A DNA stretch of 32,681 bases, from the IMG/VR virus record IMGVR_UViG_3300013132_000145, positions 1-32,681 of that record. One strand, given 5' to 3'. The translations under genes were made by a program, and so were the position numbers. The notes under the pieces were generated by a model that had not been told where the DNA came from, did no database searches, and was given only the letters and a program-made list of their open reading frames with translations. Of the stretch, positions 1 through 31,673 are shown piece after piece; within the stretch, counting starts at the first letter, position 1, and every line of letters starts with the position of its first letter. Source of the DNA: a virus.

Positions 1-123
1 CCAAGAACTCCAGCGCATTATTTTGAAAGGCTTTGCAGAGAAGCACAAGCAAACAACTATTATTCTCTTTTCACTGTTTACGATAATACGAGCATAGATG
101 CGGAAGTCATAGACATCTATTGC
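1..123. repeat. Terminal overlap, copy 1 (identical to 32559-32681)
   Basis: The first 123 bases are identical to the last 123 bases of the window. The repeat lies inside the large-terminase gene, and joining the ends keeps that reading frame intact. This is what an assembled circular or circularly permuted genome looks like, giving about 32,558 unique bases. A true packaged direct terminal repeat is less likely because the boundary falls at an arbitrary point in a coding sequence. Confidence 0.93.
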
Positions 124-20905: not shown

Positions 20906-21745
20906 ATGACAACAACAACAAAAACAAACGAACTGGCAACAGTTCTCACGAGTAACAAAGAAAAGATTGAACTTCTGTTAGCAGGAAGTCCAGTCAATCC
21001 TAACCAATTTTTGGCGATTGCTTCCAGAGTGATTGGCGAAAACCTTATTGGATGCACACCCGAAAGCGTAAAAAAATCAGTGCTTTCGGTGGCGACACTA
21101 GGGCTTTCTCCAGACCCGACTTTAGGCAATGCGTACATCTTGCCGTATGACAGCAAAGCGGGAAAGATTGCGCAGCTTATCATTGGTTACAAGGGCTACA
21201 TAGTACTTGCTAGGCGAGCTGGATATGAAGTTTTGCAATACGGAGCAATCCACGAAAACGACATATTTGAAGATGCGCCTGCAGGTGAGGCACCAAGGTA
21301 TTCAAAAGCCAGAACTAACAGAGGATCATTGCAAGGTGCCTTTTGTGTAGTTAGGGCATTGAATACAAAAACAATCACCTACACAGTGCTTTGGGAAGAA
21401 GAGATTGCAAGAGCGAAAAAATCAAGCAAATCATCAAGCAGTGATTATTCGCCTTGGAAAACTTCTCCCGATGAAATGTATGTGAAAACTGCTCTTCGTT
21501 ACCACCTAAGCAGATTGCCATTAGCGGACAAATGGAAAGAAATTATTGCAGGTGATGACGAACAAGAGTTTGAAAAACCTATAAATGATTCGCCTATCAT
21601 TGCACAGCTGAAAGCAAAGCTTGAAGTGATTAGAGGTTCTGAATTTGAGGAAGCGGAAATCGAATCTTTACGCAGTGAGTTTGAGGAAAACAAGGAAAGA
21701 ATCAGTGCTGAAGACTATACAAAAGCATTGGAACTTTTGAAGTAG
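20906..21745 (+). CDS. recT: RecT-family single-strand annealing protein
   Basis: A 279-residue protein of usual RecT length. The family features are visible: FLAIASRVIGENL near 36, then CTPESVKKSVLSVATLGLSP and GNAYILPYD, and an IGYKGYIVLARRAGY segment around 94-108. The C-terminal tail (about 225-279) is acidic and helical. It anneals complementary strands after end resection. The nuclease at 21958 is the natural partner. AAAGGAAAAAAA provides the ribosome site. Confidence 0.93.
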   Translation: MTTTTKTNELATVLTSNKEKIELLLAGSPVNPNQFLAIASRVIGENLIGCTPESVKKSVLSVATLGLSPDPTLGNAYILPYDSKAGKIAQLIIGYKGYIVLARRAGYEVLQYGAIHENDIFEDAPAGEAPRYSKARTNRGSLQGAFCVVRALNTKTITYTVLWEEEIARAKKSSKSSSSDYSPWKTSPDEMYVKTALRYHLSRLPLADKWKEIIAGDDEQEFEKPINDSPIIAQLKAKLEVIRGSEFEEAEIESLRSEFEENKERISAEDYTKALELLK

Positions 21746-21799: not shown

Positions 21800-21961
21800 A
21801 TGGAAAAAAAATATGTTAGACGATACCAGACTTTATTTATTAAAGATCGGGCAATCTACGAAGAGATTAAAAACACATTGCCAGAAGGAATGAAGCTCGC
21901 ACACTATATTGAAATCATTGTAAAACTAGGATTAGAAGAACATAAAAAAGTCAAAGCATGA
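21800..21961 (+). CDS. Small hypothetical protein, possibly DNA-binding
   Basis: A 53-residue Lys-rich protein with a helical pattern (IYEEIKNTLPEGMKLAHYIE, then IIVKLGLEEHK) that could be a ribbon-helix-helix or short helix-turn-helix fold. I choose ATG 21800, which follows AAAAGGATTA, over a TTG at 21779. It overlaps the nuclease start by ATGA. Function unassigned. Confidence 0.6.
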   Translation: MEKKYVRRYQTLFIKDRAIYEEIKNTLPEGMKLAHYIEIIVKLGLEEHKKVKA

Positions 21962-22527
21962 ATAAAGCAGACGGGAAATTTTTTGTGTTTGATAGCTTGA
22001 GCCATCAATACTTATGCAATGGCAATCCTATTCCTAGCGTAACAAAAATCATAGGAAGTAACAAAGCTTATGACACTGTTCCAAAGGAAGTCTTGGAGCA
22101 AGCAAAACTGGATGGAACGAAAAGACATTACGAAATTGAAATGCTTCTCAAACATGGGAAAGCTGTGTCGCCTTACGCAAAAAAAATTGATCAATACCTT
22201 TTTGGACAAATGAGAGATTATGAAATTGTTTGCTTCGAAGAACCATTATTTAGCGATAGTTTGTTTTTTGGTGGCACACCAGACTTGGTTATGCGAAAGA
22301 AAAACGAATGGGCGATATTAGATTGGAAAAGAAACATAGCAGGAAACAGACTTCATTACGAATTGCAGTTAGCTGGCTATGCAATCTTGACAGATAACAA
22401 AGCTAAGATTTGGAGATTGATTGTAGGAGACGAAGCCAAAAGAATGGACATTTACAATCCATTGGCAATTGGAATGTTTCGGACACTTTTGGGAGCCTAC
22501 AACATAAGACAAAACCTAGAAAACTAG
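21958..22527 (+). CDS. PD-(D/E)XK nuclease, RecE/Cas4-like partner of RecT
   Basis: A 189-residue nuclease. His57 (RHYEIE), Asp109 (GGTPDLVMR), Asp122 and Lys124 (ILDWKRN) and the downstream Gln137 and Tyr141 (LQLAGY) match the PD-(D/E)XK exonuclease pattern. A viral exonuclease with an annealing protein is a standard recombination pair: the nuclease resects ends and RecT anneals them. It starts in an ATGA overlap with the small gene upstream. Confidence 0.83.
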   Translation: MNKADGKFFVFDSLSHQYLCNGNPIPSVTKIIGSNKAYDTVPKEVLEQAKLDGTKRHYEIEMLLKHGKAVSPYAKKIDQYLFGQMRDYEIVCFEEPLFSDSLFFGGTPDLVMRKKNEWAILDWKRNIAGNRLHYELQLAGYAILTDNKAKIWRLIVGDEAKRMDIYNPLAIGMFRTLLGAYNIRQNLEN

Positions 22528-24060: not shown

Positions 24061-24386
24061 AAAAAACAAAACCTTACGACTACAAGCGATTTGTGATTTC
24101 TGCAAGTCGCCTTATTTTTTTTAGATCACCTATCAGAAGAGCAGTCGCCAAACGGTGCTTTGTCTCCAAGGGACTTTATGTTTGCGAGCTATGCAAAAAA
24201 CCTACTGACAAAATCCAAGTAGATCACATAAAACCTATCGGACTTTCGAAAGATTGGAATGAATTTTTTGAATTTTTATTTTGCTCCCTTGACGAACTCC
24301 AGGGAATTTGTAAATCTTGCCATGATAAAAAAACAACAAAAGACAAAAATGAAATGAGGAAGACACATGGAAAAAGAAAGACTTAG
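24057..24386 (+). CDS. HNH endonuclease
   Basis: A 109-residue protein read from TTG 24057, which overlaps the upstream stop as TTGA. Zinc-binding pairs are C43-x2-C46 and C85-x2-C88, with the catalytic DH (D56, H57) in VDHIKPIG and the final His89 (CKSCHD), the usual HNH layout. HNH proteins occur near terminases for packaging or as free nucleases; here it lies next to the primase-helicase, so a replication or recombination role is more likely. It is compact and has no extra domain. Confidence 0.84.
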   Translation: MKKTKPYDYKRFVISASRLIFFRSPIRRAVAKRCFVSKGLYVCELCKKPTDKIQVDHIKPIGLSKDWNEFFEFLFCSLDELQGICKSCHDKKTTKDKNEMRKTHGKRKT

Positions 24387-26832
24387 CTTTGACTTGGACA
24401 CCTACAACGACACAGTCAAAAGAACTGTAGAACAACGATTAGGCTTTGAACACAATAGCACAGGCGGAAAACAAAAACAATGTGCATGCGGACAACGAAA
24501 AGGAAACGATTGCAAATTCTACTACAAACAAGAATCTGGAACTTACAAATGTTTTCATCAAAACAAATGTGGACTTCCTAGCCTTACGGGAAACTACCAC
24601 GACTTAAACAAGCACCTGGGAATTGTTAGCAAGGAAGAAGTCAAAGAAGCAATTCCAGAAGAAAAGAAAATTCGAAAAACTAACACAGCGGAACCAGATT
24701 ACATTTACAGGTATTCAGATGGAAACATTGCGTATGGTGTTAAGCGATACGAATGGAAGGATCAGGAAACTGGGAAAAAACAAAAATCTTTTAATCCTGC
24801 TTACAAAAACACAGAAGGCAATTGGGAAATAGTTAGAACCAAAGCGGAAAACTATGAGGAGCAGAAACAAACATTTGCTAAGATTCCAAAGGTACTATAC
24901 AACTCGGACAAGATAGCAAAAGCAAAATACATCTGGATAGTGGAAGGAGAAAAGTGTGCGGACAGATTGCAAAAGGAATTTGATGGTTTTGTTTTGGATG
25001 AATACAACACAGGGACTTTCGCTTATCAGTTAGGTGATCATGCAGTAGTGACAAACATTCACGGTGCAGGAAAATGGAGGGAAGAGTACACTTTCCAAAT
25101 AAAGGAATTGGCACCTAACGCAACACTGATCATTTTACCAGATAACGACGAAGCAGGAAAGCGACATGCAAGAGACATTTGGGAGAGCCTTGGAAAGCTT
25201 CCGAAAGTAATTATTCCAGGTGGACTGGAAACCAAACAGGATATATTCGACTGGTTAGAAATGGGATGTGACATTGCACAGCTTTGTTTTTATGCAGACG
25301 AAAACACAGAAGAAATGAATGCCATCCATGATTTTTTGCAAGATGACTATTGGGAAAAACCACAAAACAACAGCAATCCGAAAGAAGATAAGCTTTACGA
25401 ACTGAATGAAGTTGGAAGTTGTGATAGGTTCTTGGATATGTTTGGCGACGATTTTATTTACGTCAAAAAAATTGGATGGTACTTTTGGAATAAAACACAC
25501 TGGGAAGAGGACGAATCTGGTGCAAAAGTCAAACAAAGAATAATCGAAAGCTTGTATGCGTTACGTGCTTATGAGCTAACACTAGGCGAAGAACAAAGAG
25601 CGGACAAAATAAAAATAAGAAACTTTTACAATGTTAGCATGACAGAAAGAAAGATTACAGCTGTTATGAAGATTGCAGAAACCAATCCAAAGGTTCGACG
25701 GAATGCGAATGTTTTGAATAACAAGCCAGACTACTTGAATGTCGAAAATGGTGTGTTAGACTTACGATCTGGAATCATTTTGCCACATGACAAAAAGTAT
25801 TATTTTACAAGAGTAATTCCAGTTGCCTATCCGAGGATTGGGAAGGGACTTCCGCTTAATGCACCAATCTGGAAAGACTTTTTAGCTACTACATTTTTGC
25901 AAAACCAGGAACTTATTGAATACATCCAGATCATGATGGGATACAGTCTAACGGGACTTACAAAAGAGCAGTGTGTATTTTTTATGACTGGAACTGGAAG
26001 GAATGGTAAATCCACCTTCATAAAAGTTTTGCAACAGTTATTAGGTGGCTATTACAAAAAGCTAAACACGGAAAGCCTTATGGATAGAAACAATGTGAGT
26101 CCTATCAATAACGACATAGCAAGATTGTATGATAGCAGATTGGTTGTTTGTTCTGAAGTCGAAGAGGGAAGAATGTGGAACCAGGCTCTCATGAAAGACT
26201 TATCAGGTGGAGATGAAATCTCAGCAAGGTTTATGCGTCAAGAGTATTTTGATTTTATGCCACAATTTAAGCTTTGGATTTATGGGAACTATAAACCCAC
26301 ATTAAAAGGATTAGACGAAGGAACTAAGCGAAGGTTTCGCATATTGCCTTTTGATGCAAAGATAGAACTTGAGAAAGTAAAAAAAGATCTGGACGAACAA
26401 CTCAAAACGGAACTTCCGCAGATCCTTGCTTGGACGGTGGACGGTGCTGTGAAGTATTACAAACACAAGGAAAAGGGACTTGCAATCAAAATTCCTGAAG
26501 TTGTTAGCAAAGCCACTGAAGACTATTTTATTGACAACGATCCGCTTTTCGCATGGCTAGAAGATTATTTTGGAAACGAAGGTTCCCTCATGTTAGAACT
26601 CCCAGACAAGATAAGCAAAAAAGAATTGTATAAATCTTACAAAGAGCATGCGGAAGAAGTAGGGAACAAAGCGTTTGGCGACAAAGCATTCACGAGGAAA
26701 ATGAAAGATCACGGGTTAGTTGACAAGGTAATATGGTTAGACGGGAAAAGCATTCGAGGCTTCTCAGGACTTAGTATTTTACGTGAAAAATTCCTAGCAC
26801 GCCAGGAAAAAAATGTCGAAGATTTCGAATGA
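24367..26832 (+). CDS. Primase-helicase (TOPRIM plus D5-type SF3 helicase)
   Basis: An 821-residue protein. The N terminus has a zinc-binding pattern (C39, C41, C49, C62, C68). A TOPRIM-like centre follows: the Glu of IVEGEKCADRL near 190-200 and the Asp of ILPDNDEAGKRHA near 255-270. The helicase half carries the Walker A GTGRNGKS (Lys548), a CSEVEEG Walker B region near 595 and the Asn of IYGNYKP (Asn641). A C-terminal domain (about 720-821) is likely accessory. It unwinds DNA and makes primers at the origin. No polymerase gene is visible, so host polymerase is inferred. The origin-like DNA lies just downstream. It overlaps the HNH gene by 20 bases. Confidence 0.92.
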   Translation: MEKERLSFDLDTYNDTVKRTVEQRLGFEHNSTGGKQKQCACGQRKGNDCKFYYKQESGTYKCFHQNKCGLPSLTGNYHDLNKHLGIVSKEEVKEAIPEEKKIRKTNTAEPDYIYRYSDGNIAYGVKRYEWKDQETGKKQKSFNPAYKNTEGNWEIVRTKAENYEEQKQTFAKIPKVLYNSDKIAKAKYIWIVEGEKCADRLQKEFDGFVLDEYNTGTFAYQLGDHAVVTNIHGAGKWREEYTFQIKELAPNATLIILPDNDEAGKRHARDIWESLGKLPKVIIPGGLETKQDIFDWLEMGCDIAQLCFYADENTEEMNAIHDFLQDDYWEKPQNNSNPKEDKLYELNEVGSCDRFLDMFGDDFIYVKKIGWYFWNKTHWEEDESGAKVKQRIIESLYALRAYELTLGEEQRADKIKIRNFYNVSMTERKITAVMKIAETNPKVRRNANVLNNKPDYLNVENGVLDLRSGIILPHDKKYYFTRVIPVAYPRIGKGLPLNAPIWKDFLATTFLQNQELIEYIQIMMGYSLTGLTKEQCVFFMTGTGRNGKSTFIKVLQQLLGGYYKKLNTESLMDRNNVSPINNDIARLYDSRLVVCSEVEEGRMWNQALMKDLSGGDEISARFMRQEYFDFMPQFKLWIYGNYKPTLKGLDEGTKRRFRILPFDAKIELEKVKKDLDEQLKTELPQILAWTVDGAVKYYKHKEKGLAIKIPEVVSKATEDYFIDNDPLFAWLEDYFGNEGSLMLELPDKISKKELYKSYKEHAEEVGNKAFGDKAFTRKMKDHGLVDKVIWLDGKSIRGFSGLSILREKFLARQEKNVEDFE

Positions 26833-28688: not shown

Positions 28689-29651
28689 GTGAATTTTTTG
28701 GATTTGTTTTCTGGCATTGGTGGTTTTAGGTTAGGTGCAGAATGGGCAGGCGTAAAGTTTGAGCATGAATTTCACAGTGACATAGAACCTTTTGCCAATA
28801 AAGTTTATGCAAAACATTTTCCACAATCAATCCAGTTAGGAGATGTGCAACAAATCGATGGAACAAAACTTAAAGAACAATATGGAAAGGAATGGATTAT
28901 CACAGGCGGATTTCCTTGCCAAGACATTTCCGTTGCTGGAAAGGGATTTGGAATTTCTGGAGAAAGGTCCAGTCTTTGGTTTGAAATGCAAAGAATTCTT
29001 GGCGAGCTACGACCACGTTATGCGATCATGGAAAATGTCCCAGCTCTCACTTTTCGAGGACTCGACAGAGTTCTTGGATCGCTTGCCGACATCCGGTATG
29101 ATGCGGAATGGACGACTGTATCGGCTCGAGACGTTGGAGCTTCCCACTTACGAAAACGAATTTGGATCATTGCCTACACCCAGGAACAACAAAGTGAAAT
29201 GCGTGACTCCGAACCTAGCAAACCGGAACAAATGCAATTTGGAAGAATCAACTGCAAAAATGAATTTTCCGACACCAACCAAAAACGACAAGAATGGAAT
29301 CACGAATCTAAGAACAGACAACAACTTAGCGAAAGGCGGAATGCACGGAGTGAGCTTGCCACATTTGATTCACAAGATGAACTTTCCAACACCGACAAAA
29401 TCAGATTCGGAAGGCGGTCTTCACAAGAACGGAGAAGCCGGGAAAGTTCGTTCAACGGGAGCAAAGACTGGTCAATCTCTGAAATGGTTCAAGCCTATAA
29501 CGGACACTTACAATGGCAAAGGACATTTGAACCCGAATTTGTGCGAGTGGTTGATGGGATACCCAATCAACTGGACCGCATTGGAGCCTGTGGAAATTCC
29601 ATTGTGCCACAGATAGCAGAAATAATTTTTAGATTGATTAAAGGAGAATAA
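28689..29651 (+). CDS. DNA (cytosine-5) methyltransferase
   Basis: A 320-residue protein from GTG 28689. Motif I is DLFSGIGGFRLG (from D5). The catalytic PC is GGFPCQDIS (Cys77), the ENV motif is MENVPAL (E115), and LRKRIWIIAY gives the QxRxR-type motif near 153-160. The C-terminal GNSIVPQIAEIIF closes the fold. Residues about 165-285 are unusual, low in hydrophobics and rich in Gln, Arg, Ser and Asn. That stretch coincides with the second frame at 28843-29616, so it is probably constrained by dual coding. It would methylate cytosine in the phage or host DNA, probably to avoid restriction. Confidence 0.9.
   Translation: MNFLDLFSGIGGFRLGAEWAGVKFEHEFHSDIEPFANKVYAKHFPQSIQLGDVQQIDGTKLKEQYGKEWIITGGFPCQDISVAGKGFGISGERSSLWFEMQRILGELRPRYAIMENVPALTFRGLDRVLGSLADIRYDAEWTTVSARDVGASHLRKRIWIIAYTQEQQSEMRDSEPSKPEQMQFGRINCKNEFSDTNQKRQEWNHESKNRQQLSERRNARSELATFDSQDELSNTDKIRFGRRSSQERRSRESSFNGSKDWSISEMVQAYNGHLQWQRTFEPEFVRVVDGIPNQLDRIGACGNSIVPQIAEIIFRLIKGE
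28843..29616 (+). CDS. Overprinted gene in the +1 frame of the cytosine methyltransferase
   Basis: A 257-codon frame lies wholly inside the methyltransferase gene. It contains LAKTFPLLERDLEFL, then SYDHVMRSWKMSQLSLFED, LPTSGMMRNGRLYRL, three LPTP or FPTP motifs (as in GSLPTPRNN), and GHLNPNLCEWLMGYPINWTA. I recognise this order (SW-TSQ, P-SGMMRNG, LPTP, NP--EWLMGYP-GW) as a recurring phage protein, from memory. Both frames therefore carry known patterns over the same DNA. ATG 28843 and ATG 28882 are possible starts; neither has a strong ribosome site. A modification-related role is suggested by position only. Confidence 0.62.
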   Translation: MCNKSMEQNLKNNMERNGLSQADFLAKTFPLLERDLEFLEKGPVFGLKCKEFLASYDHVMRSWKMSQLSLFEDSTEFLDRLPTSGMMRNGRLYRLETLELPTYENEFGSLPTPRNNKVKCVTPNLANRNKCNLEESTAKMNFPTPTKNDKNGITNLRTDNNLAKGGMHGVSLPHLIHKMNFPTPTKSDSEGGLHKNGEAGKVRSTGAKTGQSLKWFKPITDTYNGKGHLNPNLCEWLMGYPINWTALEPVEIPLCHR

Positions 29652-30193: not shown

Positions 30194-30474
30194 GTAAGGA
30201 TTCCCACAAAATTCTAAACAAACCTTTTCGCCTTCCAAGTGGATCAAAAAAGAAATTTGGAGTCTATGTAAAAAGCAAATCGGGAAACATAATCAAAGTG
30301 ACATTTGGTGATCCTAACATGGAAATCCGAAGAGACAATCCTAACGCCAAAAAGAATTTTAGATCAAGGCATGGATGCGGAACAGACAGAGCAGACGACA
30401 AAACAAAAGCAGCGTACTGGTCTTGCAAGATGTGGTCAGACAAACCAGTGAGCCAAGTAACAAAAGGAAAATGA
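30190..30474 (+). CDS. Small conserved phage protein
   Basis: A 94-residue basic protein, starting KDSHKILNKPFRLPSGSKKK, then FGDPNMEIRRDNPNAKKNF, RSRHGCGTDRADDKTKAAYW and a SCKMW end. I recognise the FGDPNMEIRRD and YWSCKMW pattern as a small phage protein usually found near head or methyltransferase genes. Two Cys and a His could bind metal. Overlaps both neighbours by ATGA. Function unknown. Confidence 0.78.
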   Translation: MSKDSHKILNKPFRLPSGSKKKFGVYVKSKSGNIIKVTFGDPNMEIRRDNPNAKKNFRSRHGCGTDRADDKTKAAYWSCKMWSDKPVSQVTKGK

Positions 30475-31673
30475 GCTTGGAACAAACAATCAAAATTCCT
30501 ATTGCACAAATCAAACCAAACCCATCTAACCCACGTATTATTAAAGATGAAAAATATAAAAAACTAGTGCAGTCAATACAAGACTTTCCAGAAATGTTAG
30601 AGCTTCGTCCTATCGTGGTCAATGACGACATGATTGTACTAGGTGGAAATATGAGACTCAAAGCTTGCAAAGAGGCAGGCATAAAAGAAATTCCTATTCT
30701 AAAAACCAGTCAACTAACAGAAGAACAAGAAAGAGAATTCATCATTAAAGATAACTTAGGTTATGGCGAATGGGATTGGGCAATGTTAGGCGCAGAATGG
30801 GACATGGAACAGCTGGATGACTGGGGATTGGATTTGCCTGAATTCAAAACAGAACTTGTAGCTGAAGAAGACGACTTCGAGATACCAGAAGAAATCAAGA
30901 CCGACATTGTGTTCGGCGACTTGTTTGAGATTGGGCCGCACCGTTTGCTTTGTGGTGACTCGACAATGATTGACAACGTCGAGAAGCTAATGAATGGAGA
31001 GAAGGCGGATATGGTGTTTACTGATCCGCCTTATGGTGATAATCATGCTGGAATGACTTGGAAAAATAAAAAAGTAATAAAAACTGAAAAAATAAAAAAT
31101 GATATTAATATCGATTTTTTAGAAGATGTTTTTAATAACGCAATTATTTTTCTAAAAGAAAATTTTTCAGCTATCATTTTTTTCAAATGGAATCATTGGG
31201 AAAAAATAAAACAATATACAAAATCATTTGGTGAACCAAAAACCTGTATTGTTTGGGACAGAAATGAAATAGCCGCCGCTAATTTTAGATTTAATCCTTG
31301 CCATGAATTCGCTTTTTATTTTGGAACACAAAGAGATAAAAAAACAAAAAGTAATTTAAGAAATGTTTGGAGAGCAAAAAAAGAATATGAATCAAAAAAA
31401 CTACATCCAACAGTGAAACCACAAGAAATAATAATACCTGCGTTAGAAGTATGCACAGAAAAATACGAAATTATTTTAGACCTATTTCTCGGCTCAGGTT
31501 CAACAATGGTAGCATCCCACCAACTGAAACGCAAATGCTATGGTATGGAATTAGATCCTAAGTACTGTCAGGTGATTGTGGACAGAATGATCAAGCTTGA
31601 TCCTACTTTAGAAATAAAACGAAACGGAAAAATTTATGAACAAAAATCAGTCGAGAAGCAGTCATGCCAATAA
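30471..31673 (+). CDS. ParB-like nuclease domain fused to DNA methyltransferase
   Basis: A 400-residue protein from ATG 30471 behind AAAGGAAA; a GTG-type start upstream would add 32 residues that run through the previous gene. Residues 8-90 are a ParB-like N domain with the GGNMRLKA box near 58-65. Residues 145-400 are an N6-adenine or N4-cytosine methyltransferase: DPPY (185-188), then LHPTVKP (311-317) and DLFLGSGST (337-345) in the permuted beta-class order. The stretch between DPPY and HPTVKP, where target recognition lies, is clearly A/T-richer than its surroundings. It probably marks phage DNA. Confidence 0.9.
   Translation: MSLEQTIKIPIAQIKPNPSNPRIIKDEKYKKLVQSIQDFPEMLELRPIVVNDDMIVLGGNMRLKACKEAGIKEIPILKTSQLTEEQEREFIIKDNLGYGEWDWAMLGAEWDMEQLDDWGLDLPEFKTELVAEEDDFEIPEEIKTDIVFGDLFEIGPHRLLCGDSTMIDNVEKLMNGEKADMVFTDPPYGDNHAGMTWKNKKVIKTEKIKNDINIDFLEDVFNNAIIFLKENFSAIIFFKWNHWEKIKQYTKSFGEPKTCIVWDRNEIAAANFRFNPCHEFAFYFGTQRDKKTKSNLRNVWRAKKEYESKKLHPTVKPQEIIIPALEVCTEKYEIILDLFLGSGSTMVASHQLKRKCYGMELDPKYCQVIVDRMIKLDPTLEIKRNGKIYEQKSVEKQSCQ

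Follow-up and report, generated by a model that had tools for sequence, protein, structure and literature searches.

The window analyzed here, i.e., the whole stretch of 32,681 nucleotides, comes from an IMG/VR virus record and is judged from its gene content to belong to a tailed phage. One of its loci very probably encodes a single C5-cytosine DNA methyltransferase (C5-MTase) as two polypeptides read from two frames of the same DNA, in the arrangement of M.EcoHK31I. A probability of about 0.88 is given to this reading, which draws on sequence comparison and structure models. Directly supported are the frame-by-frame selection, the conserved openness of the +1 frame, the large-domain fold of the first protein (alpha) and the motif layout.

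Locus and proposed arrangement

The alpha gene (28689..29651, + strand) occupies frame 0, starts with GTG and encodes 320 aa with the motifs I-VIII and X of a predicted C5-MTase large subunit. The beta gene (28843..29616, + strand) is nested within it in the +1 frame, encodes up to 257 aa and matches phrog_1008; the +1 frame is free of stops in nearly all relatives. A preliminary description, made from the letters of the window, had placed a +1 open reading frame of 257 codons inside the methyltransferase frame at exactly these coordinates. The motifs that it named (SWKMSQ, LPTSGMMRNG, three PTP and NPNLCEWLMGYPINW) are all present in the +1 frame, and SGMMRNGRLY is, as claimed, the +1 reading of the DNA for ADIRYDAEW.

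In the proposed arrangement, alpha would form the large catalytic domain, consisting of motifs I-VIII, a hydrophilic linker and motif X, with the linker probably a mere by-product of the other frame. Beta would start internally, close to motif IV, and be read in the +1 frame. It would supply the small domain, in which a short N-terminal segment over motifs VI-VIII is followed by the target-recognition region and motif IX. Once assembled, the two subunits would methylate cytosine within a specific site, most likely shielding the phage DNA from host restriction.

A second DNA methyltransferase, with a ParB-like N-terminal domain (PF02195) fused to an N6/N4 DNA methylase (PF01555), is located shortly downstream (30375-31673). 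Upstream, genes for a D5-like primase-helicase (24367-26832), RecT (20906-21745) and a PD-(D/E)XK nuclease (21958-22527) form a replication/recombination module.

The catalytic subunit

The two frames were searched separately against profile databases, as the preliminary description had proposed. Alpha matched PF00145 (E 4.4e-47) and phrog_363 (E 1.9e-68). A phmmer search aligned alpha to M.HhaI over residues 2-166 only. In the AF2 model, residues 1-170 have a pLDDT of about 95, residues 175-295 are low (mostly under 70) and residues 300-320 reach 79-87; the C-terminal helix pair that holds motif X is thus modelled confidently and the middle poorly. Foldseek aligned the model to the large domain of M.HhaI (E 2e-14, 170 columns). 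One open reading frame carries motif I, the catalytic PCQ of motif IV, ENV (VI), RxR (VIII) and the GN of motif X. Motif IV, GGFPCQDIS with the catalytic Cys (28905..28931, + strand), is read from the sequence and is invariant in alignments A3 and A5. Motif X, CGNSIVPQIAEIIFRLIKGE (29589..29648, + strand), lies where selection is back in frame 0 and the tail of beta is unconstrained. In C5-MTases, motif X packs against the AdoMet-binding domain. Alpha is accordingly annotated as a predicted C5-cytosine DNA methyltransferase with a large-domain fold.

Openness of the +1 frame

Relatives were retrieved with alignment queries; single-sequence queries yielded almost nothing. The expected number of stops was taken from synonymous shuffles of the methyltransferase codons. 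When the window's own gene was shuffled, the +1 frame stayed open from motif IV to motif IX in about 0.5% of cases (3.5 stops expected, 0 seen). Over the same stretch, 158 loci found by the +1 protein contain 4 stops in the +1 frame against 493 expected. The +2 frame of these loci contains 1602 stops against 1533 expected, i.e., no overall depletion relative to synonymous shuffles. The use of the +1 protein to find these loci could bias the counts; this ascertainment bias is removed by a second set, for which only the frame-0 protein was used in the search. Its 79 loci contain a single +1 stop against 272 expected, and 78 of them are fully open; stops in relatives, which the preliminary description had named among the observations that would speak against it, are thus nearly absent. 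Ten canonical in-frame C5-MTases, taken as controls from genomes in which the split form is present as well, contain 90 +1 stops (97 expected) and none of them is open. A second open reading frame was found at the +1 offset in 163 of 165 loci. The z-scores from the shuffles overstate significance since the sampled loci share ancestry; the comparison of disjoint pairs and the flip within the window's own lineage, both described below, are the safer evidence.

Selection along the gene

For 86 non-overlapping pairs of related genes, the mismatches were assigned to the three frame-0 codon positions. The rates at positions 1, 2 and 3 are 0.18, 0.12 and 0.42 from motif I to IV, and 0.24, 0.16 and 0.43 from motif IV to VIII. 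Between motifs VIII and IX they become 0.44, 0.29 and 0.27, so that position 1, the wobble position of the +1 frame, is the fastest (position 1 versus position 3, p 9e-53). Position 1 is again the fastest in motif IX (0.25, 0.09 and 0.13), and the frame-0 pattern is restored in motif X (0.15, 0.08 and 0.45). In the same pairs, amino-acid identity in the middle is 0.57 in the +1 frame versus 0.38 in frame 0, and in motif X it is 0.83 in frame 0 versus 0.51 in the +1 frame. Windows of five codons place the switch to the +1 frame about 9 codons past motif VIII and the return 15 codons past the start of the EW motif. Selection therefore acts on frame 0 over motifs I-VIII, on the +1 frame over the recognition region and motif IX, and on frame 0 again at motif X.

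In the window, the stretch constrained in the +1 frame (29175..29588, + strand) includes motif IX and, before it, the presumed recognition region, in which PTP occurs three times. Its frame-0 reading is the low-complexity linker of alpha, as indicated by the codon-position rates and the low pLDDT. The preliminary description had attributed the odd low-complexity middle of the methyltransferase to constraint on the second frame, and the codon-position rates bear this out. Together with the depletion of +1 stops in relatives, they also support its claim of real proteins in both frames.

The window's own recognition region is saturated versus distant relatives, and its codon-position signal is confined to the last 155 bases of the gene. 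These are overlapped by a near-identical contig, the closest relative. The three changes before motif IX are silent in beta and alter alpha, no changes were found within motif IX, and the first four changes past it are silent in alpha and all alter beta.

The +1-frame protein

Beta matches phrog_1008 with an E-value of 4.5e-28, as do all 61 beta proteins of alignment A4, and the +1 protein was matched in 287 phage records (tblastn, E 1e-3). No Pfam or NCBIfam family recognized beta in the profile searches. The AF2 model of beta alone has a pLDDT of 61.6, and a search of the PDB with it gave no fold match.

The C-terminus of beta, LNPxxVEWLMGxPxGWT, resembles canonical motif IX, RRLTPRECARLMGFPDTF. 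In the window, this putative motif IX reads LNPNLCEWLMGYPINWT (29527..29577, + strand; frame-0 reading FEPEFVRVVDGIPNQLDRI); it is assigned through hhalign by way of AquI-type beta proteins and by invariant columns in A4. Direct hhalign comparison of beta with canonical methyltransferases aligned motif IX alone, at a P of 0.19, which is not significant by itself. The indirect route goes through AquI-type beta, which aligns with beta at E 6e-36 and with the canonical motifs IX-X at E 5e-4.

Since beta's C-terminal half, with the PTP region and LNPxxVEWLMGxPxGWT, can be aligned via these relatives to motifs IX and X of canonical C5-MTases, it looks like the usual methyltransferase C-terminus placed in another frame, and not like a new invention. 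This divides the earlier suggestion that the second protein was derived by overprinting of the methyltransferase: the suggestion holds for the N-terminal part over motifs VI-VIII, which is truly overprinted, and is not supported for the C-terminal half, so that wholesale overprinting novelty is a wrong description of the second gene. Beta also carries conserved residues that are absent from every canonical C5-MTase (YDPxTSSWKTxQ and WPxxGMMRNG). A lack of homologues outside methyltransferase genes had been listed as speaking against a second coding frame. Nearly all +1 homologues examined do lie on methyltransferase genes, but this does not argue against coding, since both proteins seem to belong to a single enzyme.

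The AquI-type layout is found in a Spirochaetia MAG (L109, 1477-2442) and in Paraburkholderia (L157, 1210-2724). In both loci, alpha ends right after motif VIII, frame 0 is full of stops beyond it, and the +1 protein runs through motif IX into motif X. Mycobacteriophages show this layout too: frame 0 closes after motif VIII, right where the first switch occurs, and beta extends across motif IX and into motif X.

Several relatives depart from these layouts. In five loci (L105, L148, L050, L041 and L092), frame 0 is interrupted by a single stop or the frame changes, either in the middle or close to motif IX; these loci may represent sequencing errors, decayed copies or three-piece enzymes. In a Streptomyces platensis plasmid (L019, 897-1868), motifs IX and X share the frame of the catalytic part, but a PTP-repeat sequence is present in the middle at +1, which gives the impression of a recognition region that switched frames recently. 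In Gordonia phage Inspectinfecti (L008, 562-2520), PTP repeats, EWMMM and GNGV all occur within a single open reading frame, that of the methyltransferase, inside which an endonuclease gene is annotated; PTP copies that come earlier are in the +1 frame.

Dual-coded stretch and start of beta

Both frames are constrained over 28998..29174 (+ strand), where alpha has motifs VI-VIII and beta reads FLASYDHVMRSWKMSQ...LPTSGMMRNGRLY...FGS. From about 30 codons past motif IV, +1 residues are conserved beyond synonymous shuffles (z 16-37), among them D34, W40, T42, Q44, P59 and G62. From +30 to +78 codons, 0 stops were seen in the +1 frame against 262 expected. About 50 codons over motifs VI-VIII are under constraint in both frames at once; elsewhere in the overlap, only a single frame is coding at any given point.

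Counted in codons from motif IV, the ratio of seen to expected +1 stops is nearer expectation 21-60 codons upstream (0.64-0.87) and falls to 0.24 (-20..-1), 0.16 (0..14) and 0.02 (15..29), with no stops from 30 on. Stop depletion thus sets in near motif IV, and beta appears, from this and from the conserved +1 residues, to start there. Within motif IV, conservation of the +1 residues is weak (z 2-4), so that this part is largely shadow.

Candidate starts in the window are ATG at 28843, 28858 and 28882, or TTG at 28948. No start codon position for beta is fixed across the relatives, and there is no strong ribosome-binding site for beta in the window. A single fixed internal start was considered at the ATG of GMM/GMT, which is common (49-60% per column); it lies 3' of conserved +1 residues and cannot be the only start. 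Further upstream, at codons -10 to -3 relative to motif IV in the relatives, conservation of the +1 residues GEELLTxY exceeds that in shuffles (z 17.7 for -20..-1) with stops only partly depleted, which may reflect a start of beta in some lineages or shared ancestry.

Comparison with known systems

M.EcoHK31I (YGGCCR) is a C5-MTase of an alpha and a beta subunit, and its beta is reportedly translated from another frame within the alpha gene (Lee, Kam and Shaw, in 1995). The window has a nesting of this kind, with 28843-29616 inside 28689-29651 at +1. The two are likened by motif layout: M.EcoHK31I has motifs I-VIII and X on the large subunit and motif IX on the small one (PMC3404938), and the codon-position map of the window's family gives the same split, with motif IX assigned via AquI-type profiles, as the direct match alone is not significant. 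They differ in the region between motifs VIII and IX. The predicted target-recognition region of M.EcoHK31I was placed in the large subunit (PMC3404938), whereas in the window's family this region is selected in the frame of the small subunit.

M.AquI (CYCGRG), also an alpha-beta C5-MTase, carries the catalytic motifs I-VIII on one polypeptide and the distal recognition region and motif IX on another (PMC3404938), which is the split seen in the window. Its motif X, however, is on beta, and in the window it is on alpha. Because motif X of the window's family is selected in frame 0, the AquI-type placement of both IX and X on the small subunit does not apply here; it applies to L109, L157 and the mycobacteriophages.

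The canonical monomeric enzymes M.HhaI and M.HaeIII share motifs I-VIII and the large-domain fold with alpha. Unlike in the window, their target-recognition domain, motif IX and motif X are in the same frame, and the +1 frame of canonical C5-MTases is full of stops. The division between alpha and beta follows the domain boundary of engineered split C5-MTases, whose design purposely left motif X on the large domain (PMC5944983).

In PHROGs v4, phrog_1008 is labelled 'DNA methyltransferase'; this is the function of the overlapping gene, and the +1 frame has no catalytic motif. For Escherichia phages K1ind1 and K1ind3, an overlapping pair was deposited as 'C-specific methylase' and 'Mte8-like protein', so that both frames are listed, as found in the window. 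This pair belongs to a separate subfamily, and its second protein was assigned no role apart from its name.

Alternative explanations

Production of one full-length enzyme by programmed frameshifts, one into the +1 frame past motif VIII and a second returning to frame 0 ahead of motif X, would fit the sharp switches of constraint at both points and the alpha frame of mycobacteriophages, which stops exactly at the first switch. It would require two shifts, and the open frame-0 middle of most relatives would be needless. Under frameshifting, the second frame is needed only past the shift site, but stop depletion and conservation in the +1 frame reach at least 50 codons upstream of the switch. 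The stop-free region from about motif IV (0 against 262 at +30..+78) would be left unexplained, as would the residues Y-D-P, W-K-T-x-Q and W-P-x-x-G, which lie upstream of the junction and are conserved in the +1 frame beyond frame 0. The depletion of +1 stops from near motif IV, well before the switch, favors internal initiation over a frameshift at the junction, and frameshifting is considered improbable.

Slightly less probable still is that beta is an independent overprinted protein, e.g., with an anti-restriction or regulatory function, which shares its DNA with a self-sufficient methyltransferase. Its conserved residues found in no canonical C5-MTase and the AF2 model lacking a fold match agree with such a protein. 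Alpha, however, would then have no conserved recognition domain, its middle being unconstrained and mostly modelled at low confidence; beta holds the equivalent of motif IX and reaches motif X in AquI-type relatives, and the homologues examined lie on methyltransferase genes. That the +1 frame is an untranslated shadow of conserved methyltransferase codons and base composition is hardly credible for the gene as a whole. It agrees with the weak +1 conservation over motif IV, but elsewhere it is excluded by the stop depletion, the reversal of the codon-position rates and the canonical control. From about 30 codons past motif IV to motif IX, a shadow or composition artefact is ruled out by the shuffles, the set selected with the frame-0 protein and the canonical control.

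Distribution and implications

At least 471 candidate loci were found in a scan of viruses and 315 in bacterial and archaeal genomes; 12 of 150 sampled genomes of one phylum had matches. This suggests that the split two-frame C5-MTase, which has been described for individual restriction enzymes, is common in phages and bacteria. No earlier description as a nested-gene family was found among the open-licence papers searched. The overlap as such is not unreported, since GenBank records list both frames for some phages. What goes beyond the descriptions found is the breadth of the family and the selection of the recognition region in the frame of the small subunit, as opposed to the assignment made for M.EcoHK31I (PMC3404938).

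In these very widespread split C5-MTases, the nested +1 protein likely makes up the entire specificity domain, with both the recognition region and motif IX, which would lie outside the large subunit, contrary to the assignment made for M.EcoHK31I. The large subunit's middle would then be a selectively free linker, kept open only to reach motif X, and the family would shift between the EcoHK31I layout, with motif X on alpha, and the AquI layout, with motif X on beta.

The locus is a clear natural example of selection that changes reading frame along a single gene, with the change points mapped to within a few codons. As many databases label the +1 protein as a methyltransferase or omit it, both the annotation of such enzymes and the assignment of motifs to specificity are probably wrong in many genomes. 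A direct test becomes possible, in which beta is swapped to see whether the specificity follows.
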